A stretch of DNA of 29,733 nucleotides from a virus, in the IMG/VR virus record IMGVR_UViG_3300010885_051081, positions 1 to 29,733 of that record. One strand, 5' to 3'. Below are positions 4,220-21,804 of this stretch, one piece after another. Numbering within the stretch: the stretch's first letter is position 1; every line of letters starts with the position of its first letter. The position numbers and the translations under genes are program-made. The notes under the pieces are model-generated. The model was not told the DNA's origin, did no database searches, and worked only from the letters and a program-made list of their open reading frames with translations.

Positions 4220-4648
4220 TTACTTATTTAACTGTGATTGTGTATGTTCAATTAACCACTGTTCTACATTTGGTATCTGTCTTAGGAAATCCAACTCATA
4301 AACATAACACATATACTCCTCATTCTCTTTTGCTATTTTGATTTTATCATGTTTAATACATAAGTGCATAGACTCATGTACCAATACTGCTGCTATATTG
4401 TTTATGTTTTTAAGCTTTGCATCTTGAGAAGATATTAAAATAGTTGAATCTTCTGTAGTAGAAAAGTTACCGTTCCAAAACCCAATATGATTACAATGCT
4501 TTACAACTATCTTGTATTTTTCTATATCGGTTTTCTTTATTCTATCTAAAGCAAGTTGAACATCCGACTTCCAACCATCACCAACATCATCGATTGTAAT
4601 TCGAGGTGTGCTAAGTGTAACTAAAAATAATATTAATAGTAACTTCAT
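4220..4648 (-). CDS. Secreted HExxH metallopeptidase-like protein
   Basis: This 142-aa protein starts with a short hydrophobic signal segment (residues 1-14). AAVLVHESMHLCIKH puts HExxH at residues 91-95, and the following helix (EENEEYMCYVYELDFL) offers a Glu as third ligand. This suits a small zincin acting in the periplasm or at the cell surface. The family is not certain. It overlaps the short CsgG-like gene upstream by 4 bp (ATGA) and so belongs to the same operon as the envelope cassette. Possible roles are processing of the exported barrel or T9SS proteins, or lysis; neither is shown. Confidence 0.6.
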   Translation of the reverse strand: MKLLLILFLVTLSTPRITIDDVGDGWKSDVQLALDRIKKTDIEKYKIVVKHCNHIGFWNGNFSTTEDSTILISSQDAKLKNINNIAAVLVHESMHLCIKHDKIKIAKENEEYMCYVYELDFLRQIPNVEQWLIEHTQSQLNK

Positions 4649-5088
4649 AACCCAAATACAGCAGCTGTTATAGCTTTCTTAATCGCAGATGATAGTGTTG
4701 TTTTAGAAAATGGAATTGAACCTTCTTGTAGTTCAACCATTATAGCTCGTACTTCAACATCAGATTCACCAATACCTTCGTACTTGATTCCATTATAAAA
4801 TAAACGAACACCTACTTGAGTTGTTTGATTTGATTTTTCCATTCCAGCAATTCTGAATGTAGATTTAGGAAGTCCAAAATGATATACCTCAACCATAATA
4901 GGATTTCCTTTTTCAGATAAACAAAACTTATTAGACAATTCCTCTTCAGCAATTTGCTTGATACCAAATATTATATCTTTGGTTTTAAACTCACGCACCT
5001 TAGCTGTTACATAAACAGTATCTACTTTAACACACTCTTGTCCTAAAGAGAATAAAGGTAGCAATAAAAATAATAATAATTTTTTCAT
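4645..5088 (-). CDS. Short CsgG-like secreted protein
   Basis: The start is chosen at 5088 (MKKLLLFLLLPLFSLGQ). A longer reading frame to 5169 puts 27 unlikely residues before a clean signal peptide and overlaps the previous gene. The mature protein (about 130 aa) resembles the C-terminal half of the CsgG protein at 8292-9002. Shared positions are EVYxF, a G-x-x-K-x-x-QTT segment, the G-x-GE strand, and a final FxxSTxxxxxKKAI-like helix. It therefore looks like a truncated paralogue of the CsgG pore subunit, lacking the N-terminal region. It is paired with a barrel gene (5091-5897), as CsgG itself is with 6862-8292. Confidence 0.65.
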   Translation of the reverse strand: MKKLLLFLLLPLFSLGQECVKVDTVYVTAKVREFKTKDIIFGIKQIAEEELSNKFCLSEKGNPIMVEVYHFGLPKSTFRIAGMEKSNQTTQVGVRLFYNGIKYEGIGESDVEVRAIMVELQEGSIPFSKTTLSSAIKKAITAAVFGL

Positions 5089-5090
5089 GA

Positions 5091-5897
5091 TTAAAATTTT
5101 AGATTTGTTCCAATTAATATATTGTGCATTACACCCCACTTTGGAGTGGTATTCACATTCATTCTCCAATCAATATTGAGTTTGAATTTCTTATGTACTT
5201 TAATTCCAATGTTGTTTCCAACTACTGCATTAAAGGTATTTGACTTAGAATAGAAATGTGCTCCTAAATCATAGTATGGAGAACATAAGGTAATAAATGC
5301 TTCAGGTCTCCAATCAAGTCTTTTTGATAAAGTAATTTCTTTTTGTATTATCAACACACTATATGGAACTAAAACAAAATAAGCATCCTTATCAGTCTTC
5401 TTACCATTTGCTACTACTGAAGTTCCTAACTGAATACCAGCAGTTATCTTTTTAAATTCCCACATTCTTGTTACACTTAAACTAGAATTAAGTGTCATTC
5501 CCATTCTACCTAGATTTAAATGGTAATACCATTTCTTGCGTCTGTAATAAAATGAATATGTTTGTTGAGATAAATCAAATGTTAAAATTGCATTTATACC
5601 AAATCCTTTACCTCCATTAATTCTACTATACCCTATACCAATACCAGGTCTAAACTTAAATGTTTCATAAGTTGGACTTCCTATTAAAGCAAAGTCAGCT
5701 GCTGTAAGCATTGGATTAGGTTTAACTAAAGATCCTCCTCCAAACGATCTACCTTGAGCACCTACAACATTATTTTGTGTGTTTCCAAAATCTTGAGGAG
5801 CAGCTGCTGATGGTGGTGGTGGTGCTGGAGCAACTGTTGGAGTAGGTTGTGCTAACGACCAAATAGGTAAAAGTAGTATTAATATTAGCTTTTTCAT
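5091..5897 (-). CDS. Outer-membrane beta-barrel protein
   Basis: This 268-aa protein has a signal peptide (MKKLILILLLPIWSLAQ, cut about residue 17), a Pro/Ala-rich stretch (TVAPAPPPPSAAAP), and then from about residue 75 an alternating-aromatic beta pattern ending in Phe (GTNLKF), typical of outer-membrane barrels. The last ~45 residues (GIKVHKKFKLNIDW) match the end of the barrel at 6862-8292 (NIKLTKKFKLSIN), so the two are paralogues. No enzyme motif is seen. It may be a pore, an adhesin anchor or a lysis factor. It lies between the lectin-like gene and the short CsgG-like gene with almost no spacing. Confidence 0.68.
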   Translation of the reverse strand: MKKLILILLLPIWSLAQPTPTVAPAPPPPSAAAPQDFGNTQNNVVGAQGRSFGGGSLVKPNPMLTAADFALIGSPTYETFKFRPGIGIGYSRINGGKGFGINAILTFDLSQQTYSFYYRRKKWYYHLNLGRMGMTLNSSLSVTRMWEFKKITAGIQLGTSVVANGKKTDKDAYFVLVPYSVLIIQKEITLSKRLDWRPEAFITLCSPYYDLGAHFYSKSNTFNAVVGNNIGIKVHKKFKLNIDWRMNVNTTPKWGVMHNILIGTNLKF

Positions 5898-6865
5898 CAG
5901 TTAGTAAATCCAGTTCTAATTAGACGAAAATCTGTAGAACCACCATTTACTGGACTTGATATTGTATATGATTGAACTCCAGGATAAGTTGCCTTTAAAT
6001 TTAAATTACTTATTTTAATTATATTCCATTCGGCTGTGGTAAACAATCTATACTTTGGAACTGGATTCATCCAATTAAAAAATCTACCTGATATCATTCC
6101 ATAAGTGTAATATGAATCAGATACTGTTATCTTAGAATCGTTATTAACATCTTGTAAATAATACTTTTTAGCATTAACACTATTTGTTATAACGGTTGAT
6201 AGTATAGATTGTGCATCAGTATTTAGTAATGGAGGCATAAGTAATGAATCTACTACCATATACCACTCTATTGAAGGATTTGATGTCTTAGCTATTGTAT
6301 ATTTACCAGTTGCATCAGTATAAGTAATACCATCTAATACCCAAGGTGTTGTAGTAACAATATAATCAAATTCAATTACATAGGGTAGTGATGTGTTAGG
6401 TAAGTCATTCCATTTACCACCACTAACAAATTGAGTATAATCTTCATTACCTGCATTGTTAGGTTCTCCTGGATTCCAGTTAGTATAAGTTACAGGTTCT
6501 CCAGTTACCCACACAAATGAACCCTCAACAACTTCATCACTAAATCCAATCCATCCAGAAGGCCAAGTATTATATACAAATGTTTGCTCAGCATTATCAG
6601 CAATAGTTACTAAATGTCCTCCCATATTAATACAAGCTTGTTTAGCATCAGTCCAAATCATTGAACCTGTTGATCTATAATAGGAGTGACTATTATAGTT
6701 TGTTTGTGAAGTAAATCCAGTTATAATTGGAGTTGTTCTTTTGTAAATCTTAACAGGTATTCCTGAGATTCCCACCTCATTAGCATTGTAAACATAACCT
6801 GAATAGTTAAATGTCTGTGCTATTGATAGAATAGGTAATAGAAGTAGTAATAGTAATTTTCTCAT
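5897..6865 (-). CDS. C-type lectin protein with nested regulatory-like and dockerin-like domains
   Basis: The start is set at 6865 (MRKLLLLLLLPILSIAQ signal peptide, 322 aa in total). The 7 extra N-terminal residues of the longer frame are unlikely, and this start gives a 4-bp ATGA overlap with the barrel gene upstream. Residues 20-42 (SGYVYNANEVGISGIPVKIY) and 179-191 (GITYTDATGKYTI) look like the two halves of one CarboxypepD_reg/CnaB-like sandwich. Between them, at about 55-168, lies a C-type lectin domain with WIGFSD, EPNN (EPN calcium/sugar motif) and WND. Residues 238-283 (DVNNDSKITVSDSYYTYGMISGRF) are a dockerin-like calcium loop shared with the protein at 9668-11569. No T9SS tail is visible. 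Binding of surface glycans is likely. Confidence 0.72.
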   Translation of the reverse strand: MRKLLLLLLLPILSIAQTFNYSGYVYNANEVGISGIPVKIYKRTTPIITGFTSQTNYNSHSYYRSTGSMIWTDAKQACINMGGHLVTIADNAEQTFVYNTWPSGWIGFSDEVVEGSFVWVTGEPVTYTNWNPGEPNNAGNEDYTQFVSGGKWNDLPNTSLPYVIEFDYIVTTTPWVLDGITYTDATGKYTIAKTSNPSIEWYMVVDSLLMPPLLNTDAQSILSTVITNSVNAKKYYLQDVNNDSKITVSDSYYTYGMISGRFFNWMNPVPKYRLFTTAEWNIIKISNLNLKATYPGVQSYTISSPVNGGSTDFRLIRTGFTN

Positions 6866-8292
6866 ATTGCAAATCTTGTTCCACACATTATTGTAAAGTT
6901 CATAACATCTTGTTGAATGGCATAAGTACCACCCATATTAATGCTAAGTTTAAATTTCTTAGTTAGCTTAATGTTTGTTCCTATCAAAGGCATAACTACA
7001 TAAGGTGATTTTAAAACAAGATCGTTGTAGTAGCTAATAAAAGGAGCATATATAAATAGACCTGTAAACTTAATGTCTATTTTCTTAGTTGCCTTCCAAT
7101 CATACATTCCACCAGCTATGAAAGCTGTACCAGTAAACTTTTCTTGATAAACCTGTCCCCAAGAAGTAGTGGCTAAATAAATAACTTTAAGATTCTTTCT
7201 TAGAGTCCAAAGCTGTCCTACAGCTAAAGTTCCATACATAGAACCTTTACCATAGAAACTGACTGTAGCTGTCCCAGATATTAAGTCAATTCTCTTTTTG
7301 TGTATAATAGCATAAAATGCTGTTCCATTAGGACCTTTCATTGCTGAAGTATAATCTAATAAGAAACCGTGAGTTCTCTTACCATCCCATCTCATTGAAG
7401 TAAATCCACCAGTCACTTTACCTCCATAAGTCATATCGTTCTTTTTGAAGTTAAAGCCTGTAAAGTCGCTACTTAGTATGGTTGTAGGTCCATTCTTCTG
7501 AGTTGATTTTTGCACTGAAGTAACTGCTCCTCCTACAACATTAGATGATTTCTTTTCTTCAGTTCCGTCTGCTTTAGTGTCAGGTGCTTTTTTTTCTGTC
7601 TCATTACCACTACCCGATTTCTCATTTGTATTAGAGCTTGAAGTACTTCCAGTAGTTGAACCACCTTCAGTATTATTTCCTGTTACAGATGATTGAGATG
7701 ATTGATCTCCTCCTTCAGTTGATTGATTTGTACTTGTACTGTTTCCTCCCTCTGTTGTAGAGCTGCTCTCAGTTGAGGAAGTAGATCCTGTATTTGGTTT
7801 TGATTCGTTGCTTGATTGATTTCCTTCAGAAGTTGTTTGACTTCCTGAGTTATTATTTTGGTCATTATTTTTTTCTTTTTTATTTGAAGCTGTGTTGGCA
7901 CTTCCAGCAGCAGCCATTATATCAGTCATACCTTGCATCTCTGATTGTAAGTCAGCTGCTGCAGATAATGAATTGAGGATACTTATTGCGTTTATTGCAA
8001 CATCCTGAGCAATAGTTAAGACACTTGATATTCCTATTACCGAGCCACAAGGACTACTTCCACCATAAGAGCTGTATATGTTTTGAGCCCAATATTGAAA
8101 GTCCCCGTTTTGTATTTGTGATTGTGTAAATGTATTAATCTGTCCGTAATATGTTATAGTAACTCCATCCTTTGGTACATCTATTGTTTTTAAAACACCA
8201 GTACATGGATCACTATAAGCATAAGTAAAAGTGCTTTGTGATTTAATCACGTTAAGTACTAATACAAAACAAATTGTTATAAGTAATTTCAT
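6862..8292 (-). CDS. Outer-membrane barrel with Ser/Thr/Gln-rich linker
   Basis: This 476-aa protein has an N-terminal signal (residues 1-19), a small folded domain with CTG/PCG cysteines to about residue 130, and a low-complexity linker at about 135-260 rich in Ser, Thr, Asn, Gln, Gly and Glu. A 200-residue beta-barrel-like C-terminus follows with alternating aromatics and the terminal segment KKFKLSIN ... MCGTRFAI. That end is related to the barrel at 5091-5897. The long flexible linker suggests the barrel is anchored in the outer membrane and holds the N-terminal domain away from it. It overlaps CsgG by 1 bp. Confidence 0.65.
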   Translation of the reverse strand: MKLLITICFVLVLNVIKSQSTFTYAYSDPCTGVLKTIDVPKDGVTITYYGQINTFTQSQIQNGDFQYWAQNIYSSYGGSSPCGSVIGISSVLTIAQDVAINAISILNSLSAAADLQSEMQGMTDIMAAAGSANTASNKKEKNNDQNNNSGSQTTSEGNQSSNESKPNTGSTSSTESSSTTEGGNSTSTNQSTEGGDQSSQSSVTGNNTEGGSTTGSTSSSNTNEKSGSGNETEKKAPDTKADGTEEKKSSNVVGGAVTSVQKSTQKNGPTTILSSDFTGFNFKKNDMTYGGKVTGGFTSMRWDGKRTHGFLLDYTSAMKGPNGTAFYAIIHKKRIDLISGTATVSFYGKGSMYGTLAVGQLWTLRKNLKVIYLATTSWGQVYQEKFTGTAFIAGGMYDWKATKKIDIKFTGLFIYAPFISYYNDLVLKSPYVVMPLIGTNIKLTKKFKLSINMGGTYAIQQDVMNFTIMCGTRFAI

Positions 8293-9002
8293 TATCTTTT
8301 AAATAATCCCTTTTTAATCATTTTAGATATGATCCTAGAAGAACCAGTTTCTAATGCCTTCTTAGTAGTAATACCTATTGTTGATTGATTAAATTTAATA
8401 TCTGTCACATCCTCTAATATAGATGCTGTTTTAATTGTTGAAGCTTCACCTAATCCACTTCCTGTAAACAATTCACCTGTCTCTGCATCTACAAATCTAA
8501 CCTGTAAACCTAAGCGAGTTGTTTGAGTTGTCTTAGACGTACCATTTATTTTAATTACCTCATCTTCAGATACTGAGAAGTCATACACTTCCATATACAC
8601 AAAATACTTAGCTAATTTAATTTTTCCCTTCCCATCAATTACATTCTCAGTAAAACCTTTTGCTGAAGCTTTAAACTGTGTAATCATTCTTTCTTTTATC
8701 TCTAACCTGTCTTCTGTAAATACAAAACGATTAGTCATATCTAAAAACTCTAAAACCATATTTGCTACTCCTAAACCAACTCTTTTATCTTTTAGTTCAG
8801 GATACATTTCATACAACTCTTCATTAATACCAATCTTTAAAATCTGAATAGGATATTTTAATGAATCGCTATAATCACTTACAACATCCATTGATTGCTT
8901 CTTTTCAAACTCAGATTGATACGATTCCGTCTTAACAGAACCAATCTGTGCCTTACCCAATAAAGGTAAGACACACATTAGTATAATTGTTAATATTCTC
9001 AT
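8292..9002 (-). CDS. csgG: CsgG-family outer-membrane secretion protein
   Basis: In this 236-aa protein a signal peptide (MRILTIILMCVLPLLGKAQ) precedes a CsgG-like body. GLGVANMVLEFLDMTNRFVFTED (about 75-100) matches the CsgG start region. A repeated beta segment VYMEVYDFSV and the strand QTTRLGLQVRFVDAETGELF are the typical CsgG core. A helix with STIGITTKKALETG follows. No lipobox cysteine is visible after the signal, unlike canonical lipidated CsgG. CsgG forms an outer-membrane nonamer that exports curli subunits. Phage csgG homologues are known from marine T4-like phages. No curli subunit is seen here, so the cargo may be the neighbouring proteins or none. Confidence 0.8.
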   Translation of the reverse strand: MRILTIILMCVLPLLGKAQIGSVKTESYQSEFEKKQSMDVVSDYSDSLKYPIQILKIGINEELYEMYPELKDKRVGLGVANMVLEFLDMTNRFVFTEDRLEIKERMITQFKASAKGFTENVIDGKGKIKLAKYFVYMEVYDFSVSEDEVIKINGTSKTTQTTRLGLQVRFVDAETGELFTGSGLGEASTIKTASILEDVTDIKFNQSTIGITTKKALETGSSRIISKMIKKGLFKR

Positions 9003-9295
9003 TAGTTAGCTTCTTCTTCCTCAACATCAGTTCCTGCATCAAGAGTATTCTTGTGCTTTTCGTTATCTGCTTTTTTAGTAACATATTTATCAACTGCTGC
9101 AATACCAAACGAACCTAAAGTAATCACTAAGAATCCATTAAAAATGTATTCATTAATAAGTAACTCTTTGCCCATATAACCTGTTACTAAATCAACACCC
9201 ATAGCAATTACCATCACCATAAATGCCATAAAACCAACTACTGACTTTTCATTGATATCATTGTTGTCACTAAATAAATTTTTTAAAAATCCCAT
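9002..9295 (-). CDS. Two-TM holin-like membrane protein
   Basis: This 97-aa protein has two hydrophobic segments, at about residues 18-38 (SVVGFMAFMVMVIAMGVDLV) and 50-68 (YIFNGFLVITLGSFGIAAV). Both termini are charged, and the C-terminus is acidic (DVEEEEAN). Size and topology suit a class II holin delivering endolysin to the cell wall, and a GH19 endolysin lies 6 kb downstream on the same strand. The first residues (MGFLKNLFSDNND) look like an amphipathic or cytoplasmic start. Assignment rests on topology only. It overlaps CsgG by 1 bp. Confidence 0.55.
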   Translation of the reverse strand: MGFLKNLFSDNNDINEKSVVGFMAFMVMVIAMGVDLVTGYMGKELLINEYIFNGFLVITLGSFGIAAVDKYVTKKADNEKHKNTLDAGTDVEEEEAN

Positions 9296-9331: not shown

Positions 9332-9664
9332 TTACCAAGGAGCATCCTCAGTTTCACTCTTTTTAGCCTTTTTTTCAACTGGCTTCTCAACAATCTTTTC
9401 TTTAATGATGGTTGTTGTACCACCATTCTTTTGTTGTTGAGTATTCTCTTGATTCTGAGTTAAATTAATAACTACAGGAGCAGCTGCTGGAGCTGTTACT
9501 GGAGCAACCGTCTCAGTTTTGTGTTCTTCTTTATCTTCAGAGTGACCTCCAAATACTGTAGTTGATAAATAAATACCACCACCTGTTACTACCGTTGTTA
9601 AAGTACCAATAATCGTTTTTTTCAAACCTGACCAAGTACCATCATTTGTTGTTTCTTCTGACAT
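9332..9664 (-). CDS. One-TM protein with Pro/Ala- and Gln-rich stalk
   Basis: This 110-aa protein has a short N-terminal cytoplasmic part, then a membrane helix at about residues 17-40 (TIIGTLTTVVTGGGIYLSTTVF). The outside part has a Glu/Lys/His patch, an Ala/Pro/Val stretch (VAPVTAPAAAPVV), a Gln/Asn-rich segment (NLTQNQENTQQQKNGG) and a lysine/glutamate-rich end. The layout resembles an inner-membrane spanin or a TonB-like stalk spanning the periplasm. It lies between the holin-like gene and the T9SS protein, which favours a spanin or envelope-spanning role, but no motif proves it. Confidence 0.55.
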   Translation of the reverse strand: MSEETTNDGTWSGLKKTIIGTLTTVVTGGGIYLSTTVFGGHSEDKEEHKTETVAPVTAPAAAPVVINLTQNQENTQQQKNGGTTTIIKEKIVEKPVEKKAKKSETEDAPW

Positions 9665-9667: not shown

Positions 9668-11569
9668 CTATTTTATTAATATTGTTTTATTTGTAACTGT
9701 ATTTGTTAAAGTTTTTAATACTGTATAATAAGTACCTGCTGATAAGTCTTTCAAGTTAGCTGTGTAGCTATAAGTTCCATTAGGTAAAAAGCGATTAAGA
9801 ACATTAATTACATTATTACCAACTCCATCTACAAAAGATAGATCCACATCACCATCTTGCTCAACATTAAACTGAATCACTACTTCACCAGTTGTTGGGT
9901 TAGGAAACACTAAGATATCATTATTCTTCAGTTTAATTCCAGATCCTATTCTATTAATAGCTACTAAACCATTTGTAGGAATGATGTTCATATCTTTAGC
10001 ATTTTCATCACCAACAAATTTTCTTGTAGTGTATAATGGACTTTCATTCCAAACATTCTGAGGAGCTTTAGCTATAAAATTAAAGGTAAATACTATTTCT
10101 CCGTCCGTTAAAAGGTTGTTTCCATTAGTCATATCAAATCCACCCCATTCAATTATACCGTCCTGAGGATTAATAAAAGACATCCAATTCATCGACTTCT
10201 CTCCATTAGTTAATCTTCTAAAGTCCAACAAATCACTATCAAATTTTAAAGCTAATTGTAATGCTCCTAACTTATTAGCACCTGTTATTACTTTAACTGG
10301 TACTTCAACTAAGTTTCCTTCATTCACTAATAACTCAGGCAATCTAATCTCTACTGTTTGTAAACTTCCATCATACTCAGTTGCTTCATCTATAATGTGA
10401 TATGGAGCATTTGAGGGATTATTAATTTGGATTGGAGTTAAACGAGCCATATGATATCCAGTCCCATTTACATCACCTGGTACTGCAACATAGAAGTCAG
10501 CTGAGTCAGGCATACCTGGTAAAATATTATATGTGAAGTTTGTTACGCCTGGTATAATAGAGGTAAAATTAGTGCTTGGAGCTCCAACTACAGTTGTATA
10601 TTCAGTAGCTGTAAAGAATTTAATATCAGGTACAGCATTAGGCCAAGTTGCAAATCTTCCAGAGATTCTACCAAAGATTCCATAGACATCAGAGATTGTA
10701 ATATCATTTGAACCATTTACATCTCCAGTGTAATAATCAAATCCTTGTGGAGTTGTTGATGTGGTTACAATAGTGTTTAGGTACTGAGCGTCTGGTGTTG
10801 AAACAACACTACCTACACCCATTGTATCACCTCTTACTTCTAATCTAATATTATAGAAGGTTGTATCTATGTTAGTATTGATGTTATACTTTCCTAAAGA
10901 GTTAGTTGCATACACTCCAGCTGTTGTCCAAGTACCAGCTGTCTTTAACTTCTTAGATAACACAACTGTTAAGCTTTTGGATGGAGTTGCATTTACATTT
11001 GTAAAAGTACCATGAAATTTAATTCCTGGTTTAATAAAGTTACCACCGTAGTTATATAAAGATAAACCTACATCATTACCTGCTTGCTCTGTTGCTGTTT
11101 GAGTAAAAGTCGGAAGACCAACCCAAGTTAAATTTGAGATCGTTGCAAGACTTTGGAATGCTGTTGGAGGAGCTAAATGAGTGAATGTGATTTCAAACAT
11201 TTCTCCATCAGGCAAAGTATAAACTGCACTACTCCCAGTATAAACCAAAGTAATGGTTATATATCCACTTATATTATTATCTACATATTGTGTGTATAGA
11301 TTTGGAGGAGTTCCTATTAAGGATACTGTAGCAGCTGTAAAAGCAATCTTATCGTAATAAACTCTGAACTGTGTTCCGGTAGTTTTAGTTACGGTTGTAT
11401 TTCTTAAAGTGATTTTTGCTTTAGTAACTCCAGCTACACTTGTACCAACTGTATAGTCAGTAGGGATGATAGCCCAAATTCCAGGACTTGGAGCAGAAGG
11501 GCCTGTTTGTGAAAAAATTGTTGTGGATAGTAATAATAGACATGCTATTAAACATTGTAGTTTATTCAT
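9668..11569 (-). CDS. Secreted cohesin/dockerin-like protein with T9SS type A sorting domain
   Basis: In this 633-aa protein the signal peptide occupies residues 1-20. Residues 27-170 look like a first cohesin-type beta-sandwich (FRVYYDKIAFTAATVSLIG). Residues 183-235 resemble a regulatory-like sandwich. Residues 283-330 (DVNGSNDITISDVYGIFGRI) are a dockerin-like calcium loop. Residues 408-505 are a second cohesin-like domain (VPVKVITGANKLGALQLALK, then DLLDF). The last ~80 residues (LVFPNPTTGEVVIQF ... DLSAGTYYTVLK ... ILIK) are a T9SS type A sorting domain. The T9SS should therefore export it across the outer membrane and anchor or release it. In a phage genome this is unusual, and surface display or a virion-associated adhesin is the likely role. 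Confidence 0.82.
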   Translation of the reverse strand: MNKLQCLIACLLLLSTTIFSQTGPSAPSPGIWAIIPTDYTVGTSVAGVTKAKITLRNTTVTKTTGTQFRVYYDKIAFTAATVSLIGTPPNLYTQYVDNNISGYITITLVYTGSSAVYTLPDGEMFEITFTHLAPPTAFQSLATISNLTWVGLPTFTQTATEQAGNDVGLSLYNYGGNFIKPGIKFHGTFTNVNATPSKSLTVVLSKKLKTAGTWTTAGVYATNSLGKYNINTNIDTTFYNIRLEVRGDTMGVGSVVSTPDAQYLNTIVTTSTTPQGFDYYTGDVNGSNDITISDVYGIFGRISGRFATWPNAVPDIKFFTATEYTTVVGAPSTNFTSIIPGVTNFTYNILPGMPDSADFYVAVPGDVNGTGYHMARLTPIQINNPSNAPYHIIDEATEYDGSLQTVEIRLPELLVNEGNLVEVPVKVITGANKLGALQLALKFDSDLLDFRRLTNGEKSMNWMSFINPQDGIIEWGGFDMTNGNNLLTDGEIVFTFNFIAKAPQNVWNESPLYTTRKFVGDENAKDMNIIPTNGLVAINRIGSGIKLKNNDILVFPNPTTGEVVIQFNVEQDGDVDLSFVDGVGNNVINVLNRFLPNGTYSYTANLKDLSAGTYYTVLKTLTNTVTNKTILIK

Positions 11570-11628: not shown

Positions 11629-13815
11629 TTACATAAGAATTATGTGTCCAACATAGGTTTTTTCTCTACCCATATAATCTCTTACTCTTATTTTATAGAC
11701 ATATGTATCAGCATTAGCTAATACACTTCCTCTAATTTTGCCATCCCAACCCTTAGTAATATCAGTTGTTTGATAGATCATATTTCCCCATCTATCGTAT
11801 ATACTCATAACAAACCCTTCTGATCTAACACCAACACCACTTACCATAAATACATCGTTATTACCTTGTTTATGTGGTGTAAAAGTGTTTGGAATATATA
11901 TTACATAGTCATCATCGATCTTCAACAACTTAGTAATTGTATCTTTACATCCAAAGCTATTAGTGACAATTAGGGTGACTGGATAAGTATCTACAATATT
12001 ATATGTATGTGATCCATTTTGAGTATTTGCTGTGTCATATATAGGTGCTACAAAAATGTCTCCAAAATCCCAATGCCAATTAGTAATAGGTAATCCTATA
12101 GTTGATTGGTCATAAAAAACTATATCATTCAATAATATGTTTGGATCTTCAGGTGTATAATAAAAGTAAGCATCTGGTTTTGGAAACACAGTGACTGTTG
12201 TAACAGGTGAAATTCCAATACATCCATTAGTTCCAATTACCGTTAGTTGTGTGGTATAAATTCCAGCTGATAGTTGATAATTTATATAACAACTGTTAGT
12301 TGGCACTCCCATAAAATTCCAAATACAATTTGAATATCCAAACGTAGTACTACCAAATTCCACATTAAATGGTTCACAACCTGATAATAATGAAGTAGTA
12401 AATGTAGGTATTGGAGCAATGTTTACAAACACGTTTACATAGCTTGTATCATTTGGAGAGCATCCATCTGAAGTAATGAGAGTGTAGGTTGTTGTAACGG
12501 TTGGGGATACTGAAATTGTATTTGTGTTTATATTTCCAGGCATCCAAGTGTATGTGTAAGGACCTCCATTACCCAACACTCCAGTTGCTGTAAATGTTGT
12601 TACTCCTCCAATACAAATGTCCCCAAATGTTGGAGTATAGTTTGTTTGTAAAGGTGGTAATACATTTACACTAACAGATGATATTGAAGTACAACCATTA
12701 ATATCTTGAACACCAACTGAGTAGAATGTACCACTAATTGGCTGAACCATGAATGATCCTGCAGTTGCTGATGTTGGAGGCCAAGAGTAAATGTATGGAG
12801 GAGTTCCGCCACTTGCATTAGCGTTTAAAGTACTAATACCGTTATAACAAATTATTAATGGTGATGCAGTTGGTGAGAGAGTTAGTTGAGGTGGATTGAT
12901 TAAAGCAAACGTACCAGTTGATGTACAACCACTTACTGTAGCTGAGACACTATAAACTCCAGCTAAGTATGTAGCTGTATTTGTTGAACTTGAATTGGCT
13001 GACCAAATGTATGATGAATAGCTTGGCGGTAATATGACTGTTCCAAAGTTACCAAAACATAGAGGATTAACAATTGTTGGTGTAATAGGTAAAGCTCCAT
13101 TCACAGCTACAAATGCTGTTAATGTTGCTGATTGACCACAACCATTACCTATAATACATGTATAAGTTGTGCTTACTGTTGGAGTTACAACTATAGTTTG
13201 TGGATTACTAGTACCAGGAATATGAAGCCAATCATATGTGTTTAAAGTTCCTGGAGCTACAGTTCCACATCCACCACCAGGATTAGCCGTTAAGACAGCT
13301 GAGCCTCCCAAACATATTGATGTAGTAGAAGTTGTTATTGACCCTGTAAATGCTAATGGAGTTCCAGGCACAGTAAATGAATTGATTGCTGTCCAAGCTC
13401 CAGGAGGCCCTCCTAATGCTCCACATACATTTTCTCTTGCTCTAAAGTAATAAACTTGTCCTGGGCATAAAGAGGAGAATGGAATAAAGATTGGAATGTA
13501 AGGTTCTAAGATACAGTTATCAAACCAAGACGGAGGTCCATAACCAGGTATATTTAATAGTGATCGATACCAAGGATAAGTGTTCCAACCAATACCGGAA
13601 CAGTAAGGTACTAAGCCACTTAATGTGTTAGTACACTTCATTTCTACTTCTAAATAATAAGGACCACAGCCACATGTAGCGGCATTTGAACTTGCATTTA
13701 TTGTTACTCCAGTAGCTCCAACTACATAATTATAATTTACTAAAGGCATTCCATGACACGAAACAATCCGTGTATAAGTTAGCATTAGTAACATTATTAG
13801 GATTGTTTTTTTCAT
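11629..13815 (-). CDS. Large PKD/adhesin protein with T9SS type B (CHU_C) C-terminus
   Basis: This 728-aa protein has an N-terminal signal (MKKTILIMLLMLTYTRIVSC) and then multiple ~80-residue Ig/PKD-like repeats with conserved Cys, Gly, Tyr and Thr (for example SDGCSPNDTSYVNVFVN and GTPPYIYSW). A clear PKD domain (NWHWDFGD ... THTYN-like) lies at about 560-620. Residues 637-728 (IPNTFTPHKQGNNDVFMVSG ... IYDRWGNMIYQT ... GWDGK ... TYVYKIRVRD) are the gliding-motility-associated CHU_C domain, i.e. T9SS type B sorting. The protein is probably an extracellular adhesin. It is first in the cassette, 50 bp downstream of the next gene, so it may start the operon. Confidence 0.85.
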   Translation of the reverse strand: MKKTILIMLLMLTYTRIVSCHGMPLVNYNYVVGATGVTINASSNAATCGCGPYYLEVEMKCTNTLSGLVPYCSGIGWNTYPWYRSLLNIPGYGPPSWFDNCILEPYIPIFIPFSSLCPGQVYYFRARENVCGALGGPPGAWTAINSFTVPGTPLAFTGSITTSTTSICLGGSAVLTANPGGGCGTVAPGTLNTYDWLHIPGTSNPQTIVVTPTVSTTYTCIIGNGCGQSATLTAFVAVNGALPITPTIVNPLCFGNFGTVILPPSYSSYIWSANSSSTNTATYLAGVYSVSATVSGCTSTGTFALINPPQLTLSPTASPLIICYNGISTLNANASGGTPPYIYSWPPTSATAGSFMVQPISGTFYSVGVQDINGCTSISSVSVNVLPPLQTNYTPTFGDICIGGVTTFTATGVLGNGGPYTYTWMPGNINTNTISVSPTVTTTYTLITSDGCSPNDTSYVNVFVNIAPIPTFTTSLLSGCEPFNVEFGSTTFGYSNCIWNFMGVPTNSCYINYQLSAGIYTTQLTVIGTNGCIGISPVTTVTVFPKPDAYFYYTPEDPNILLNDIVFYDQSTIGLPITNWHWDFGDIFVAPIYDTANTQNGSHTYNIVDTYPVTLIVTNSFGCKDTITKLLKIDDDYVIYIPNTFTPHKQGNNDVFMVSGVGVRSEGFVMSIYDRWGNMIYQTTDITKGWDGKIRGSVLANADTYVYKIRVRDYMGREKTYVGHIILM

Positions 13816-15247: not shown

Positions 15248-17488
15248 TTATTTCTTTAAAAACTTTTTATTTAATTCCTTTGCAATCTGTATAGCACTAT
15301 TACAATCAACTACTGAAGCATCCTTACCGTACATGTTACGAAATGCTCTACCACTTCCACTACTCATGAAAGAAGTGAGTAAGTTAGCATAAGCTTTTTC
15401 TTTTTCCTCATTTGTTGTAACACTATTTCCACCACCTTGTATAAAGAATGACAATACTGAAATATTTAATTCATTTCTCATTTTATCAACTTGACGTTTA
15501 GTATGTAGTTCAGCTGATGTACCACCATAACTACTACATCCAGGTTCTCCATCCGATATATTAAGAAAGTAACTATCCATCTCACTTGAGCTTGGTACTA
15601 ACATATTCTTAGTTAACATTGCCTCAAAACATAAACCTTCAGGTGTCATTGAAGTTGGATTAAAACTACTGAACACAGCTACTAAATGATTAAACTTATT
15701 AACACGACTATCATATACTGATAACGTAGCTGGAGTATCTCCACTACCACCATGAGTAGTAACTCTTATTGATATCTGTACATTTATATTCTGAGTATAG
15801 CTTGCAGCTTTAGCAATAGCTGTTGCCATCTGTATTGTTGATGACCACTTACCACCACTCATACTTCCTGAGCCATCTAACGATATGTGTATATTAGCTT
15901 TCTTATATCTATCTACACTAATCTGCTTAAACACGTTTTCGATTCCATATCCAGCATGTGCAAGTCTCTTACCATCTATCTTACCACTACGTAAACGAGT
16001 ATCAACTCTTTCACGAGACTCATTATGCAATTGTAATTTTTTACCTAACAAACCTCCCATCTCAGTACCTAAACGAACAGCATCAGCATACTCTTCTCTA
16101 CTACCTCCAAACATATGTAATGTATCCAACTTCTTTCTCTCATCTCTAAGAGCATCGTACTGATTCCAAAGATCATTATAAGCAATACTACTACTTAACA
16201 TATTTCTCATCTTCTCATTCACCTCTTCTATTTGAGCATTAAGCTCAACTAACGCTTGAATTTGATTACTTTTAACATAGTCATACAATAATGCTGTACG
16301 AACTCCAACACTTTTATCGCCAACTGTCTGAACATCAATAGTCTGATTTGCAATAGCATCTAATTGTTGTTGTAATTTTTTAGTAGTACTTTTCTTATTT
16401 GTATCACCATTTAAGAAGTTTTTCTGCTCATTAAAAGCTTTTCTAATAGCTTCTACCTCAGCAGGTGTAAGAGCATCTGAAAGCCCTAATCCACCACCTG
16501 TACCTTCATCTTCACCACCATCACCACCTTCACCTTTTCCTTCTCCATCTTCTGTTTCTGTAGTTTCACCTTTACCAGTACCACCTTCACCTTCTCCATC
16601 ACCAGGATTAGTCTTATTCTCTTCTTCTTTCTTTTCGAAATCAATACCTTCTTGAATTAGTATATCAAGAATGTCACAAGTAATAGTAAGAGCTTCATCA
16701 GTATTTTTAATACGAGAAATATTAGGTAAATCAATAATATCAACAATCTTATCCAATCCAGGCATTGCCTTGACATTGAAGTTTGGATTCATCATATTTA
16801 CTATATGAAACAAGTAGTTATCGAGGTTTGTAGGATTAGAAAACTCAGCAGCTAAAAATCCTTTAGTTACATTTTTAGAGTTCCAATAGTGATCATATAA
16901 CTTATGATAATAAGCTTTGTAACCTGGAGAAGTAGTGAATATGTAGTTATCAATACGACGATCTTCTACCCAATTCAATAACGATTTAGCTACTGAAAAT
17001 AGATTAGAATTGTTTAAAGTATGAGTATAGTATTTTTCTCTTATAGCTTCATACTGAGGACATCTCTGATTACGCATATTATCGAATATTTCAAAGTCTG
17101 TCATTATAATGTGAGAAGCTTCGTGTAATGCTAAACCTACAGTAACATCAAAGTTTGTATCCTTAATATCAGTCGATAAGTTAATAGCTTTACCATTAGT
17201 GAATGAATCACTTCCAGCCCACATTACAGGAATATCCTGCTTAGTTACGATCTTCACGAAGTTAGTAATAGCTCGACGATAGTTAGTTAACTTGATTAAC
17301 TTCACTGTATCAGCACTACCAACACGCTCAGAAGACATTCCACTGAACTTATCAGTATTATCCCACCTATCATCCATCCAAAAGCTTGAATAGCTATGCT
17401 TTGTGTTTAACCCACGATAGTCGGTCGATTTCTTCTTCTTCTTTAGTGCAGTTCTAGCACTATCCCAGTAGTTTGTGTAATTTGCCAT
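15248..17488 (-). CDS. Metallopeptidase-like plus VWA protein (CobT-like layout)
   Basis: In this 746-aa protein residues 1-200 hold a zincin-like region with LALHEASHIIM (HExxH at 122-126) and LNWVEDRRID (Glu175). Residues 287-340 are a Gly/Glu-rich acidic linker. Residues 530-720 form a VWA domain with MIDAS motif DGSGSMS (Asp538, Ser540, Ser542) and downstream SMTPEG (Thr). This fits metallopeptidase-like plus VWA proteins that pair with MoxR/CobS AAA ATPases, and phages often carry CobT-like partners of CobS. Here the AAA partner is at 18516-19664. The likely role is an ATPase-driven remodelling or ligand-handling machine; cobalt chelation is not implied. Confidence 0.82.
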   Translation of the reverse strand: MANYTNYWDSARTALKKKKKSTDYRGLNTKHSYSSFWMDDRWDNTDKFSGMSSERVGSADTVKLIKLTNYRRAITNFVKIVTKQDIPVMWAGSDSFTNGKAINLSTDIKDTNFDVTVGLALHEASHIIMTDFEIFDNMRNQRCPQYEAIREKYYTHTLNNSNLFSVAKSLLNWVEDRRIDNYIFTTSPGYKAYYHKLYDHYWNSKNVTKGFLAAEFSNPTNLDNYLFHIVNMMNPNFNVKAMPGLDKIVDIIDLPNISRIKNTDEALTITCDILDILIQEGIDFEKKEEENKTNPGDGEGEGGTGKGETTETEDGEGKGEGGDGGEDEGTGGGLGLSDALTPAEVEAIRKAFNEQKNFLNGDTNKKSTTKKLQQQLDAIANQTIDVQTVGDKSVGVRTALLYDYVKSNQIQALVELNAQIEEVNEKMRNMLSSSIAYNDLWNQYDALRDERKKLDTLHMFGGSREEYADAVRLGTEMGGLLGKKLQLHNESRERVDTRLRSGKIDGKRLAHAGYGIENVFKQISVDRYKKANIHISLDGSGSMSGGKWSSTIQMATAIAKAASYTQNINVQISIRVTTHGGSGDTPATLSVYDSRVNKFNHLVAVFSSFNPTSMTPEGLCFEAMLTKNMLVPSSSEMDSYFLNISDGEPGCSSYGGTSAELHTKRQVDKMRNELNISVLSFFIQGGGNSVTTNEEKEKAYANLLTSFMSSGSGRAFRNMYGKDASVVDCNSAIQIAKELNKKFLKK

Positions 17489-17510
17489 AATTTGTGTGTT
17501 TTATATGTTT

Positions 17511-17549
17511 GTATAGTTAAAGATCACCCTTTTATTTCGATATTGGGTA
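17511..17549 (-). promoter_or_regulatory. Predicted promoter, VWA gene
   Basis: TAACTATAC (17511-17519) follows the conserved GGGTGATCTT block on the minus strand. The GGTTG element seen in other cassettes is replaced by TACCC at the expected place. The spacer keeps ATATCGA. The leader to the start at 17488 is about 22 bp. Confidence 0.6.
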
Positions 17550-17570
17550 ATAATGATGAAAAATAATAGT

Positions 17571-17610
17571 ATTGATAATCAGGTAGTTAGATAACTAGCT
17601 GATTCACAGC
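17571..17610. repeat. Intergenic palindrome copy 1 (cassette G)
   Basis: Imperfect palindrome centred at 17590.5 (TTAGATAA). Arm TAATCAGGTAGTTA pairs with the reverse of TAACTAGCTGATTCA. The centre lies 71.5 bp from the start of the promoter box at 17519. It follows the 17614 gene stop by 3 bp. Confidence 0.85.
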
Positions 17611-17613
17611 TAA

Positions 17614-18210
17614 TTAGATTTTCTCTGCATGAAATGCATTATATACTTTCCGTGGTAATTGGTCGTATCGCATGTTGAATTTACTACTCATAGTGCTGAG
17701 TACAGCCTTATTAGTGTATGGTGCATTACCAGGTTTTGACCATGTTCTACTGTGATACATCCAATTGTAAAAATGCACGTATGCATTAGCCTTTCTTACA
17801 TAATCATCCACATCAATAGCTAGTTTCCACTTCTTCATCATCTTTACAGATCTGCGCTCTTTGTCCAGTTCCAAGTCTCTTGAATGAGCCAAATGAGTAG
17901 CTATATTACGAACGCGTTTACCTTTCAACCAATCCTCTATTTTATTTAATGCATTACCTGCAATATCCCACAGCTCAATACCATCTTGCCACTGTGTTAA
18001 GTGACAGTATTCATGTACTAAAACACCTAAAGCATCTTTGTGTTTCATAGAAACTACTAGCATGCTAGTGTCACTATCGAAGTAACCTGCACATTTAATA
18101 CTACCACAGTAAACGAAGTGAGTTGGACGTAAGTCACATTTAATACCCAGTTCTTTGCAGTGCGCTTTTACATACTCTACAAATGCTTTATCGTTTTTAG
18201 TCATCTCCAT
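17614..18210 (-). CDS. SprT-like zinc metalloprotein
   Basis: In this 198-aa protein ALGVLVHEYCHLTQWQDG holds HExxH. A later helix with HSRDLELDKERR offers Glu as third ligand, as in the SprT/WSS1-like zincins. No signal peptide is present, so it should be cytoplasmic. SprT-like proteases often act on DNA-protein crosslinks, which would suit a phage replication context, but the C-terminal part (residues 120-198, Lys/Tyr/Trp-rich) is unrecognised. The start could be 18210 (MEMTK) or 18204 (MTKND). It overlaps the stop region of the gene at 18197-18514. Confidence 0.68.
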   Translation of the reverse strand: MEMTKNDKAFVEYVKAHCKELGIKCDLRPTHFVYCGSIKCAGYFDSDTSMLVVSMKHKDALGVLVHEYCHLTQWQDGIELWDIAGNALNKIEDWLKGKRVRNIATHLAHSRDLELDKERRSVKMMKKWKLAIDVDDYVRKANAYVHFYNWMYHSRTWSKPGNAPYTNKAVLSTMSSKFNMRYDQLPRKVYNAFHAEKI

Positions 18211-18514
18211 TCTCCTTTGCTAGTTTTTTATAAATTTTATCCTCATTGAAAGCCGCATTTGATTTACGAATCATATTCTGAAACCATGCACCATACTTAG
18301 CTGTATTCCAAGCTCCTCTAACTGTCTTAGAGAAAGGTATTCGAAGCTCTGGATCTACCACTGATAGTCCATCACCATCTACTACTTGAAAATATAACTG
18401 ACTATTAATATTCCTTGCTACTGTGTGAGCCCCAGGAAAGCGCTTATCTATAAAGCGCTTCACCTTAGCAAATTCCTTTTGTTCTGGGGTTTGTACGATC
18501 TTAACTTTCTTCAT
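18197..18514 (-). CDS. Small basic protein of the MoxR cluster
   Basis: This 105-aa basic protein has no signal or membrane segment. It starts with a Lys-rich segment (MKKVKIVQTPEQKEFAKVKRFIDK), has a beta-rich centre (LYFQVVDGDGLSVVDPE) and ends in a Lys-rich helix. No family is recognised. It sits between the AAA ATPase (1-bp gap) and the SprT-like gene (14-bp overlap), so it is translated with them and is probably an accessory of that system. Confidence 0.6.
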   Translation of the reverse strand: MKKVKIVQTPEQKEFAKVKRFIDKRFPGAHTVARNINSQLYFQVVDGDGLSVVDPELRIPFSKTVRGAWNTAKYGAWFQNMIRKSNAAFNEDKIYKKLAKENGDD

Positions 18515-18515
18515 A

Positions 18516-19664
18516 TTAGAATCCTAAGTCAGCAGTATCACCCATTAAGTTATCAGCAGTACCATCATTTACATACTTCTGCACTAATTGCTTAACGAAA
18601 GTACGCTCAGATTGTAAACCTCCATCCTGTGAATATAGTGGATAAATACTTACTTCAGCACACTCAGTAAGCGTGAATCCATCAGTCATTAATCCAGCCA
18701 TCTCCATTACAGATCGTGTTGATATTGGTGTTTGAATACGAGCACTATCCGACTTAATTTCCGAACGTGTTTGTGATGCAATCTCAGCTAAGCTATCAGC
18801 GATCTCCTTATTTAACGTAGGATAAATTTGTAACATTAATTGTGATTCTTCAACAGGTTTTAAGAATGGAATCTCTGCAATAACAAAGCGATCTAATAAT
18901 GCTCTATCCATCACACGAACAGCAGTATACTCACTACCAATGTTAGCAGTACCAATGAAGCTCACACCCTTAGCAACTTTAACAGTTGGAGTATTAACAG
19001 CCTCATCCATACGTAAATAACGCTGACCTGGATCTAACACTGTCATTAAGATATTCCAAGCCTCTGGATGAGCACGAGAAACCTCATCTAACAATACTAC
19101 CATATTCTCAGTCTGTATAGCCTTAACAAACGCAGATTCATTAAAGAAAGTACCTGCATCCTTGCTAAAGTGTGTATTACCAATCAAAGTACCACGTGGA
19201 TCTTGAGTAGCCCCTAAATTCACATAGAAGATCTCTCTATTCATTGCTTTCGCCACAGCCATTGCAGTTTGTGACTTACCACAACCTGTAGGACCTGTTA
19301 ATAGTATGTTACTACCACGCATTACTGAACGACATAAGAACTTCCAAGTTAAATCCTCACAATATAATGATTGAGGACGTTTAGATACGCATGTACTAAG
19401 GAATGCCATAATGTCATTCACTTCTTCAGTAGCAGCTTCTAATACTTCTGCTGATACTACTGGCTCTAAGGCATTAGGATCTACTTGACGCCATTTACCT
19501 GATGCATTTGATAACCACATACCTGCTTTATGCGCTTTACTTAGCGTCATATAAGTAATCTGTGTAGTGATGTCTTCACCCGTTTTAGTGTCAGTTGCAC
19601 GTACTGATTGTCCTTTCTTTCCTGCTCCGATTGCGACTTTTGCGATAATTGCGTTGTTTGTCAT
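18516..19664 (-). CDS. MoxR/CobS-type AAA+ ATPase
   Basis: The start is set at 19664 (MTNNAIIAKVAIGAGKKGQ, 382 aa), matching the ACATACACTATG leader; the 13 extra residues of the longer frame are A/T-rich and unlikely. After a unique ~100-residue N-terminus, Walker A is GPTGCGKS (124-131), Walker B VVLLDEVSRA (189-198), a sensor-like segment is GTANIGS, and the arginine region is DRALLDRF. MoxR ATPases act as chaperone-like motors with VWA partners, and CobS-like members are common in phages. Its VWA partner is at 15248-17488 and two small genes lie between them, so the four genes probably form one functional unit. Confidence 0.88.
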   Translation of the reverse strand: MTNNAIIAKVAIGAGKKGQSVRATDTKTGEDITTQITYMTLSKAHKAGMWLSNASGKWRQVDPNALEPVVSAEVLEAATEEVNDIMAFLSTCVSKRPQSLYCEDLTWKFLCRSVMRGSNILLTGPTGCGKSQTAMAVAKAMNREIFYVNLGATQDPRGTLIGNTHFSKDAGTFFNESAFVKAIQTENMVVLLDEVSRAHPEAWNILMTVLDPGQRYLRMDEAVNTPTVKVAKGVSFIGTANIGSEYTAVRVMDRALLDRFVIAEIPFLKPVEESQLMLQIYPTLNKEIADSLAEIASQTRSEIKSDSARIQTPISTRSVMEMAGLMTDGFTLTECAEVSIYPLYSQDGGLQSERTFVKQLVQKYVNDGTADNLMGDTADLGF

Positions 19665-19684
19665 AGTGTATGTTTTTAGTTTTT

Positions 19685-19724
19685 TTATATATTTAAAGAT
19701 CACCCTAATTGGGTAGTTATGCTA
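19685..19724 (-). promoter_or_regulatory. Predicted promoter, AAA ATPase operon
   Basis: TAAATATATAA (19685-19695) preceded by AGGGTGATCTT on the minus strand. GGTTG is absent (TAGCA in its place). It lies 70.5 bp from palindrome copy 2 and about 21 bp before the start at 19664. Confidence 0.6.
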
Positions 19725-19745
19725 ATTTTGATTGTATTCTTTCTA

Positions 19746-19785
19746 TCTGAGTATCAAGCAGTTATGTAACTACCTGATTATCAAT
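19746..19785. repeat. Intergenic palindrome copy 2 (cassette F)
   Basis: Centred at 19765.5 (TTATGTAA). The arms TGAGTATCAAGCAGTTA and TAACTACCTGATTATCA match 13/17. It follows the 19797 gene stop by 11 bp. Confidence 0.85.
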
Positions 19786-19796
19786 GTGATTAATTT

Positions 19797-20933
19797 TTAG
19801 CTGTTTTTTTCGAAATCGAAAAATTCAACAGCATTTATTAACTGCTCATTTACTGCCTCAGCTACGTCTGTTTCAAACTGACTTGTATTAAGACTAACAC
19901 TAATACTGCGATTGTAGCTATCAAGGTCAAGCTCTACTACATCATCTGCATCCACTGAACTTATTGCATCTTCAACAGCACTCTTAACATCTGAATCCAC
20001 ACTGTTTACAAAGTTTCTTAGTATGTCTTTTACCTGCTCTTTTGTGAATAGCTCACTTGAATTAGGCACTGCAACTGGTGTTGAAATCCTATTTATTTCT
20101 AACGCTTTAACTGCGGCATAATCATCTACTGATTTTAACCACAAATCACTAGCTTCTTGACCCATCATTATGTTAAGAAGGTTTAAGATCTCTCTATAAC
20201 TAGCGGTTGGATTTAGTGCTAAATGCATCTCAGTCTCAGCAACTTCTGCAAAAGGAATACCTTGTTTATCAGGATGAATATTCACCCATGAAACGCAGTG
20301 AATATCAAGTCCAAAAGGTGCTGTTACAGTGAAGTTTACAGTACATGATCTCATTGCTCCGTCGATTATAACGCTAGATTCGTTAACGTTTACTGTGTTT
20401 GTGTTGTCTGTGTTTGTCATAGTTTCAGTAGTTTTAGTAGTTTTAGTAGTTTTAGTTTTTAAATTAGGTGTATACTCTCCAGTTGATGCGTCAATTAGAT
20501 CTTCTAAACGTGCTTGCTTAGGCTCTTCTAATACTGCAGTTTTCCAAGGATTAATTTTATGTTCTTCAGGTAAAGACTTCCAGTATTCACAGCTATGGTC
20601 AGCCCATTTATCATCCTCTGCATACCCGCGCTTTAAGCCCTTAAAGTGAAAGCTTCCAAACCATTCAGGAATTGGACCGTTGATCTTCCACAATCCACGC
20701 TTAATCTTACTGATACATCCTAAATCTCTCAAAACCGTTTGATAGGTACGAGTAGTGTAGAATCGGTTATTAGTGCATCGTTTCCACGACGTGCTATTCT
20801 CGTAATCACCAACCATATGGTTAAGATTAGCTGCTGTATACGTGGTGTTTCCATGCTGTAGATTTTCGTTAATAAAACGCTTATAGCGTGTGAATAGTGT
20901 GATATTAGCTCCCTGTCTTTCTGCGTGTTTCAT
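19797..20933 (-). CDS. Two-part protein: HTH-like N-terminus fused to an unknown domain
   Basis: In this 378-aa protein residues 1-100 (TTYTAANLNHMVGDYENS, TYQTVLRDLGCISKIKRG) look like a winged-helix DNA-binding region. Residues 155-175 hold three exact repeats of KTT (9-bp ACTAAAACT units), followed by ETM, at about 20419-20460. An internal ATG at 20420 (MTNTDNTNTVNV) directly follows an A-rich leader-like sequence resembling those before other genes here, so the second half (about 207 aa) may be an independent product or a fusion partner. Its C-terminus is acidic. No family is recognised. Confidence 0.65.
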   Translation of the reverse strand: MKHAERQGANITLFTRYKRFINENLQHGNTTYTAANLNHMVGDYENSTSWKRCTNNRFYTTRTYQTVLRDLGCISKIKRGLWKINGPIPEWFGSFHFKGLKRGYAEDDKWADHSCEYWKSLPEEHKINPWKTAVLEEPKQARLEDLIDASTGEYTPNLKTKTTKTTKTTETMTNTDNTNTVNVNESSVIIDGAMRSCTVNFTVTAPFGLDIHCVSWVNIHPDKQGIPFAEVAETEMHLALNPTASYREILNLLNIMMGQEASDLWLKSVDDYAAVKALEINRISTPVAVPNSSELFTKEQVKDILRNFVNSVDSDVKSAVEDAISSVDADDVVELDLDSYNRSISVSLNTSQFETDVAEAVNEQLINAVEFFDFEKNS

Positions 20934-20956
20934 AGTGTATGTTTTTTAGTTAATTT

Positions 20957-20995
20957 CTATATATAAAGGTCAGGATCTTTTGTCGATATCCAACC
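20957..20995 (-). promoter_or_regulatory. Predicted promoter of 20933 gene
   Basis: GGTTG (20991-20995) is exactly 25 bp from TATATATAG (20957-20965) on the minus strand. The spacer holds GATATCGA and CTGACCTT. The leader to 20933 is about 23 bp. Confidence 0.75.
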
Positions 20996-21016
20996 GTTTG
21001 TTAGTGTTATTTAGCA

Positions 21017-21056
21017 CTTGATAATCAAGTAGTTATATAACTTATTGATACTCAGA
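21017..21056. repeat. Intergenic palindrome copy 3 (cassette A)
   Basis: Centred at 21036.5 (TTATATAA). Left arm CTTGATAATCAAGTAGTTA. It follows the 21066 gene stop by 9 bp, and its centre is 41 bp from GGTTG and 71.5 bp from the promoter box. Confidence 0.85.
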
Positions 21057-21065
21057 GCCGTTGTT

Positions 21066-21515
21066 TTAGTTGTGTAAAACACGCATTATTTGTCGTAATT
21101 GGAAGGCTTGAGATCCACTAATAACATAGTCTTTTACCTCCTTATCAACGTACAATGATGCAGTGTCAAAACCCTTTGTTTCGCACAAATATAGTGCTTC
21201 TTCACCCACTCTTTCGAACAGTTTCTCAGAGCCAATAGTGGCCATTGAAACCTTATGTTTAGTGTGTTTTGGGTTGTATGAATCGCTCTTAGAACCACCC
21301 TTTAACACAGTGCCAAAACGCTTTCTTTCACCGATTTTATTGATGGCTTCAGCCTGTTCTTTCGGCATTGTTTGCACTGTATTACCAGTCTTATGATTCA
21401 CGATATTCACGAATCCATAACTGTCTGTAGTTGAACAATTAACGCAGGTTTTATAACCTAATTCAGTGCGTTTTTGCGGTATATCATTACCGCATTCAGT
21501 GCATATTTTATCCAT
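21066..21515 (-). CDS. Zinc-ribbon protein, function unknown
   Basis: This 149-aa protein has an N-terminal zinc ribbon KICTECGNDIPQKR ... TCVNC (Cys5, Cys8, Cys24, Cys27) that probably binds zinc and may bind nucleic acid or a protein; the ribbon resembles those of TraR/DksA-like proteins but is too short to assign. The remainder has Lys/His-rich segments (SYNPKHTKHKV) and a helical C-terminus (SGSQAFQLRQIMRVL). The end overlaps the start of the gene at 21508-21804 by 8 bp. Confidence 0.6.
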   Translation of the reverse strand: MDKICTECGNDIPQKRTELGYKTCVNCSTTDSYGFVNIVNHKTGNTVQTMPKEQAEAINKIGERKRFGTVLKGGSKSDSYNPKHTKHKVSMATIGSEKLFERVGEEALYLCETKGFDTASLYVDKEVKDYVISGSQAFQLRQIMRVLHN

Positions 21516-21804
21516 TTAACTTACATTTAAAGATTGCTACAAACCCTGTAGAAACGGTATCAAAGGGTGTGATATAACCTGCGTCAACTAACGCGGATAA
21601 CACTCCTTCATTCTCACTATAATCCTTAATGAAAACTTCGTCATCAGCGCATTGCTCGTTCGGCATGCACACTGATGCTGTAGCGACAGCTTGTCCATCT
21701 TCGCTGTCTATAAGGGATAATGCATTCTGCCCATTGGCATATTTTGCACGACTTACGTTGCATGTAAAGCCTGCAAATAGTACTTGTTTATTAGACGCTT
21801 TCAT
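21508..21804 (-). CDS. Small conserved-looking protein, function unknown
   Basis: This 98-aa protein is beta-rich with Cys residues (FTCNVSRAKYANGQNALSL, ASVCMPNEQCADDEVF). It has no signal, membrane or catalytic motif. The pattern of an N-terminal strand and a C-terminal acidic/hydrophobic segment resembles small phage structural or regulatory proteins. It is co-transcribed with the zinc-ribbon gene (8-bp overlap) and the TM gene (3-bp gap). Confidence 0.55.
   Translation of the reverse strand: MKASNKQVLFAGFTCNVSRAKYANGQNALSLIDSEDGQAVATASVCMPNEQCADDEVFIKDYSENEGVLSALVDAGYITPFDTVSTGFVAIFKCKLNG

Follow-up and report, generated by a model that had tools for sequence, protein, structure and literature searches.

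A viral gene in a 29.7-kb virus record (29,733 nucleotides, IMG/VR record IMGVR_UViG_3300010885_051081, here called the window) encodes a protein, T9A, that ends in a type A sorting domain of the type IX secretion system (T9SS). We conclude that T9A is confirmed as phage-encoded and as bearing a T9SS type A sorting domain, and we infer that the T9SS exports the protein and cleaves its tail. We further propose that T9A is probably a cellulosome-like scaffold, exported by the T9SS, whose cohesins hold dockerin-bearing lectins and thereby give infected cells a phage-made glycan-binding coat. The computational basis for the proposal consists of the domains, the sorting tail, the homology between modules, the linkage of the genes, and the exported character of their products.

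The T9A open reading frame was located on the minus strand at positions 9668 to 11569, and the plus-strand translation of the same interval was riddled with stops. Pfam searches, AlphaFold2 prediction with PDB comparison, and homologues indicated that the 633-amino-acid product is laid out as a signal peptide, a first cohesin (residues 29 to 181), a dockerin-like module (residues about 223 to 370), a second cohesin (residues 401 to 532), and a T9SS type A tail (residues 551 to 633). The sequence-only reading had reported a 633-residue protein with a signal peptide and a convincing type A tail, and both held. Rated crudely for hydrophobicity and a cleavage site, the N terminus resembled a Sec-type signal peptide (K-x-hydrophobic stretch-FSQ), and it was kept among homologues. 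PF18962, the type A family, matched residues 554 to 630 with 33.1 bits (gathering score 27), such that the claim was not refuted by the absence of a match to sorting models, but TIGR04183 scored only 18.6 bits on the single T9A sequence, below its cutoff of 23. Moreover, the predicted tail (residues 547 to 633) superposed on the PorU C-terminal domain 6za2_A (Z 10.2, rmsd 2.3, 85 residues), and complement C3 domains gave scores similar to PorU. Among close homologues, dN/dS was approximately 0.12 in the tail, indicating purifying selection, 0.11 in cohesin 2, and 0.07 to 0.09 in cohesin 1 and the dockerin-like module.

Relatives of T9A were sought by scanning viral contigs with a three-sequence alignment, which identified 231 stretches encoding relatives, the best 80 of which were fetched. 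The T9A alignment held 38 distinct members including the window protein, to which the others were 46 to 59% identical. The sorting domain PF18962 was matched in all 38, the cohesin family PF00963 in 35, and the dockerin family PF00404 in 12. Whole records were represented by 14 viral contigs of 118 to 292 kb and Flavobacterium phage Immuto, 10 of which, Immuto included, matched a terminase profile. Each of the 15 contained exactly one sorting-domain match over the cutoff, and 14 control genomes contained none. A tblastn search with a consensus type A tail, which is a weak test, matched no other deposited phage. Separately, another phage-encoded T9SS type A protein (284 amino acids, 54.5 bits) was noted at positions 6483 to 7337 of contig L109, a phage-like contig of a Bacteroidetes metagenome-assembled genome (MAG).

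Of the features named in the sequence-only reading, the two cohesin-like domains were supported by structure comparison, and the dockerin-like loop rests on a profile match. T9A was modeled with AlphaFold2 on the 38-sequence alignment, from which one row taken from a deposited phage record was left out, at a mean pLDDT of 82.5, and the model was compared with the PDB by VIA-align. Residues 29 to 181 superposed on cohesin 3ul4_A (Z 13.8, rmsd 3.0, 139 residues) and residues 401 to 532 superposed on cohesin 6kgf_C (Z 14.1, rmsd 2.6, 131 residues). The two domains were not joined to one another by hhalign (2.7%), though both fold as cohesins. Within the intervening module, the T9A profile at residues 247 to 312 matched the ScaB dockerin 4uyp_B (E 6.6e-4), and the first calcium-binding loop was degenerate.

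A candidate partner for the scaffold is encoded nearby on the minus strand at positions 5897 to 6868. The 323-amino-acid product, called DOC, has a signal peptide, a C-type lectin domain (Lectin_C, 57.3 bits, with EPN and WND motifs present), no T9SS tail, and a C-terminal module homologous to residues 223 to 367 of T9A (hhalign probability 99.8, E 1.6e-27); the same module aligned to cohesin 2 as a control gave 0.5%. Among DOC homologues, the C-terminal module remained constant while the binding domain changed: 29 of 37 carried a C-type lectin domain (Lectin_C), 12 a LamG-like domain, and one or two each a PA14, pentaxin, or GEVED domain. The main ground for proposing a cohesin-dockerin assembly is that a cohesin scaffold adjoins a partner with a matching type of dockerin. 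Glycan binding, one of the roles suggested in the sequence-only reading, has become more concrete because the partner gene encodes a C-type lectin joined to a T9A-type dockerin module.

T9A and DOC belong to a block of genes with a near-invariant order, which across approximately 80 loci around T9A reads T9A, p110, small transmembrane (TM) protein, CsgG-fold protein, barrel-like protein, lectin-dockerin protein, short CsgG-fold protein, and HExxH protein; the lectin gene sits elsewhere in the block in Immuto and a few other contigs. Signal-peptide-like N termini were found in 8 of the 10 open reading frames between positions 4220 and 13815 versus a single frame elsewhere in the window, which is lipoprotein-like and has 104 amino acids. 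The window members that follow are all encoded on the minus strand. The p110 protein (9332 to 9664) has 110 amino acids, one hydrophobic segment, a proline-rich linker, and a conserved acidic C terminus ending in tryptophan, and it adjoins T9A in 79 of the 84 loci of the first set; its homologues share the acidic stretch with an invariant terminal tryptophan (EDAPW, EEDSW). The small protein at 9002 to 9295 has two predicted TM segments and is holin-like by topology only. Two different proteins of this kind, which look unrelated, interchange at this position, the window type in 37 loci and the type found at positions 8743 to 9099 of contig L075 in 31. The barrel-like exported protein (6862 to 8292, 476 amino acids) consists of a conserved N-terminal domain, a low-complexity Ser/Gly/Thr linker, and a C-terminal part that resembles an outer membrane barrel by inspection only. 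A second exported barrel-like protein (5091 to 5894) was found in only 6 of the 84 loci of the first set. An exported protein with an HESMH motif (4220 to 4648), a putative metallopeptidase, is a usual downstream member. In 12 loci, the block also includes an exported DNA/RNA nonspecific endonuclease (PF01223, 70 bits; positions 17174 to 17764 of contig L022), and in Immuto the block is adjoined by a gene whose annotation names a nuclease of the DNA/RNA nonspecific type.

The product of the gene at 8292 to 9002 (236 amino acids, with a signal peptide) was assigned a CsgG fold. Its predicted structure (pLDDT 74.5) ranked CsgG chains first, with Z up to 13.1 over 160 residues (4uv2_E); Foldseek against CsgG gave an E of 5.5e-9, and profile-profile alignment of the family to bacterial CsgG by hhalign gave an E of 3.5e-5 at 72% probability. 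The likeness emerged only through these structure and profile-profile comparisons, and sequence models were weak: the family profile found no match among PDB sequences, and the Pfam CsgG model matched nothing in the 15 viral records. No lipobox was found at the end of the signal peptide (MRILTIILMCVLPLLGKAQ). The model had long strands, an indistinct second barrel hairpin, and a hydrophilic hairpin tip. Because of the missing lipobox and the indistinct barrel hairpins, we do not claim that the protein forms a pore. A second, shorter protein at 4645 to 5088 on the minus strand is a paralogue of the first (hhalign probability 97.9, E 4.9e-13); its sole profile match, to ribosomal protein S1, was weak and was taken as chance. 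The CsgG-fold protein is encoded by 437 viral stretches. When further loci were fetched around its gene, T9A with its tail lay upstream in 77 of 77 that had 3 kb of upstream sequence, and the barrel-like, lectin, and short CsgG-fold genes lay downstream in 59 of 59 that had 5.5 kb of downstream sequence. The 77 loci are not independent events, as many come from closely related contigs and some of these contigs had already appeared in the first scan.

CsgG-type proteins are already known in phages, namely, pelagiphages and methylophage Melnitz (PMC7029224, PMC9004378), where they likewise occur in an export-related operon. Those phages have proteobacterial hosts and a recognizable CsgF (PMC7029224, PMC9004378), whereas the T9A block has two CsgG-fold paralogues without a lipobox, linked to a T9SS scaffold and a lectin.

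A cultured relative was found in Immuto, which was isolated on Flavobacterium sp. LMO8 and has head genes of the T4-like kind; gp13 to gp19 of this phage share the block and its protein family with the window. A search of other Bacteroidota phages, which had been suggested as a check, recovered the block in a cultured phage and many viral contigs. A bacterial chromosome as the source of the window, which would have refuted the sequence-only reading, was rejected: the window is a virus record and the gene block is present in a cultured phage. Unlike in the window, T9A is split in Immuto, such that gp14 contains cohesin 1 and the dockerin module and gp15, which passed both Pfam models, contains cohesin 2 and the tail; the annotation reads hypothetical, lectin, and cohesin, with the T9SS tail unmentioned. 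The same split occurs in contigs L027, L040, and L049. Each of gp14 and gp15 has its own signal peptide, which fits parts that meet outside the cytoplasm.

The position of the block in Immuto bears on two weaker rivals of the proposed coat. One is a cassette for lysis or outer membrane disruption, in which the two-TM protein is a holin, p110 resembles an inner spanin, opening of the outer membrane falls to the CsgG-fold and barrel-like proteins, and T9A is an accessory. Within the block there is indeed a small two-TM protein, a GH19 endolysin and a lysis-type PHROG gene are often beside it, and a role in lysis has been put forward for the CsgG of phage Melnitz (PMC9004378). We nevertheless consider a lysis cassette unlikely, as the two-TM proteins of the block match no holin family, the Immuto block is approximately 27 kb from the endolysin and holin, and neither the lectin-dockerin partner nor the T9SS tail has an obvious role there. 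The other rival holds that the lectin and scaffold decorate the virion or serve in receptor binding, either as built-in components or by attaching to the particle in the periplasm. The exchangeable lectin domains do resemble receptor-binding modules, and no virion proteomics was found that could exclude a place in the particle. The signal peptides, T9SS tail, and CsgG-fold proteins nonetheless point outwards from the cell, and the Immuto block (10.5 to 16.4 kb) is remote from the structural genes for capsid and tail (about 114 to 160 kb), and we judge a virion role to be quite unlikely.

A third alternative is that phages recently captured a host cluster for polysaccharide use or adhesion, which does during infection what it ordinarily does in the bacterium. 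In favor of such a capture, Bacteroidota commonly possess T9SS tails, lectins, and cohesin-like domains. Among 84,980 species genomes, however, only two T9A relatives were found. The first was on a phage-like contig of 254 kb, which carries genes for a topoisomerase, a tail-collar-like protein, and an endolysin and belongs to a Bacteroidetes MAG whose other contigs encode further T9SS cargo. The second was on a 16.5-kb contig of a MAG labeled Sphingomonadaceae, a group not known, to our knowledge, for the T9SS. Moreover, the homologues are approximately 50% divergent yet syntenic over hundreds of viral contigs, which argues that the block is old in phages. Recent capture from a host is therefore very unlikely.

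Returning to the glycan-binding coat, T9SS export, surface display, cohesin-dockerin pairing, the role of the CsgG-fold proteins, and the benefit are all inferred. Sec would take T9A to the periplasm, as its signal peptide suggests. Judging from the tail family, the host T9SS would then recognize the C-terminal domain and carry T9A through the outer membrane, where the tail would normally be removed by cleavage and T9A either anchored or released. On the cell surface, by the identity of the domains, the cohesins may bind the dockerin modules of DOC and perhaps those of other scaffold copies. DOC itself lacks a tail and its route across the outer membrane is unexplained; the two CsgG-fold proteins and the barrel-like protein probably help to export or seat it. 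An infected cell would thus display a phage-made glycan-binding coat. The likeliest benefit would be an altered cell surface, which either masks phage receptors and so wards off superinfection or lets infected cells and progeny adhere to sibling cells or particles rich in glycans; receptor masking and adhesion cannot be separated and are equally compatible with the evidence. Against the coat stand the lack of data on secretion, surface location, binding, or benefit, the subcutoff TIGR04183 score, the dockerin match in a minority of homologues with its degenerate first loop, and a place in the particle that is not excluded. We advance only tentatively, and with some doubt, the wider claim that a widespread lineage of Bacteroidota phages builds an extracellular cohesin-dockerin assembly on infected cells for dedicated surface remodeling, in which the scaffold leaves through the host T9SS and exchangeable lectins through a phage CsgG-fold apparatus. 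If true, rebuilding of the cell surface during infection through the host T9SS, with a modular lectin display, would be routine among lytic phages of abundant aquatic bacteria. Mutations in T9SS genes confer resistance on phage-exposed Flavobacterium columnare (PMC9233685), and the T9SS may therefore be both door and tool for phages. Immuto and Flavobacterium sp. LMO8 constitute a cultured phage-host pair in which the coat is directly testable.

The proposed assembly resembles the scaffoldins of clostridial cellulosomes in that cohesin and dockerin modules are distributed over a surface scaffold and its glycan-binding partners. It differs in being viral, in anchoring by a T9SS tail, and in bearing lectins rather than cellulases, with binding inferred only. 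The sequence-only reading rightly held T9SS cargo in phages to be little described; the earlier reports are the crAss-like BACON protein (PMC6949934) and Cryophage, for which hijacking of the host T9SS and superinfection exclusion were suggested (Bellas et al. 2020, PMC7468147). Cryophage likewise encodes proteins with type A sorting domains, there on three variable genes (endoglucanase, GH39, and PA14) in one phage (PMC7468147), whereas T9A is one cohesin scaffold that is conserved, together with the surrounding block, across hundreds of viral contigs and in a cultured phage. No description of the combined module of scaffold, lectin, and CsgG-fold protein was found in the literature searched, a search that was not exhaustive.

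Other features were noted in the window. Adjoining T9A on the minus strand (11629 to 13815) is T9B, which encodes a 728-amino-acid protein with a PKD domain and a T9SS type B tail (CHU_C, 55 bits; TIGR04131, 54.2 bits; both over their cutoffs). T9B was rejected as a member of the conserved block, as a relative was present in 1 of 84 loci. Type B tails were present in four large viral records, and the 642-kb phage LR756502.1 had three, one of them on an exported open reading frame of 1670 amino acids. Genes for CobT-like VWA and CobS-like AAA proteins, as in other large phages, lie at 15248 to 19703 on the minus strand with a putative metallopeptidase gene between them. Finally, a palindromic element, TAGTTATATAACTA flanked by TGATACTCAG, occurs in about seven copies between genes at positions 17535 to 28663. 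The copies are confined to the right half, with none in the exported-protein block; the pattern matched 11 times versus 0 expected, and the element is possibly a phage regulatory signal.
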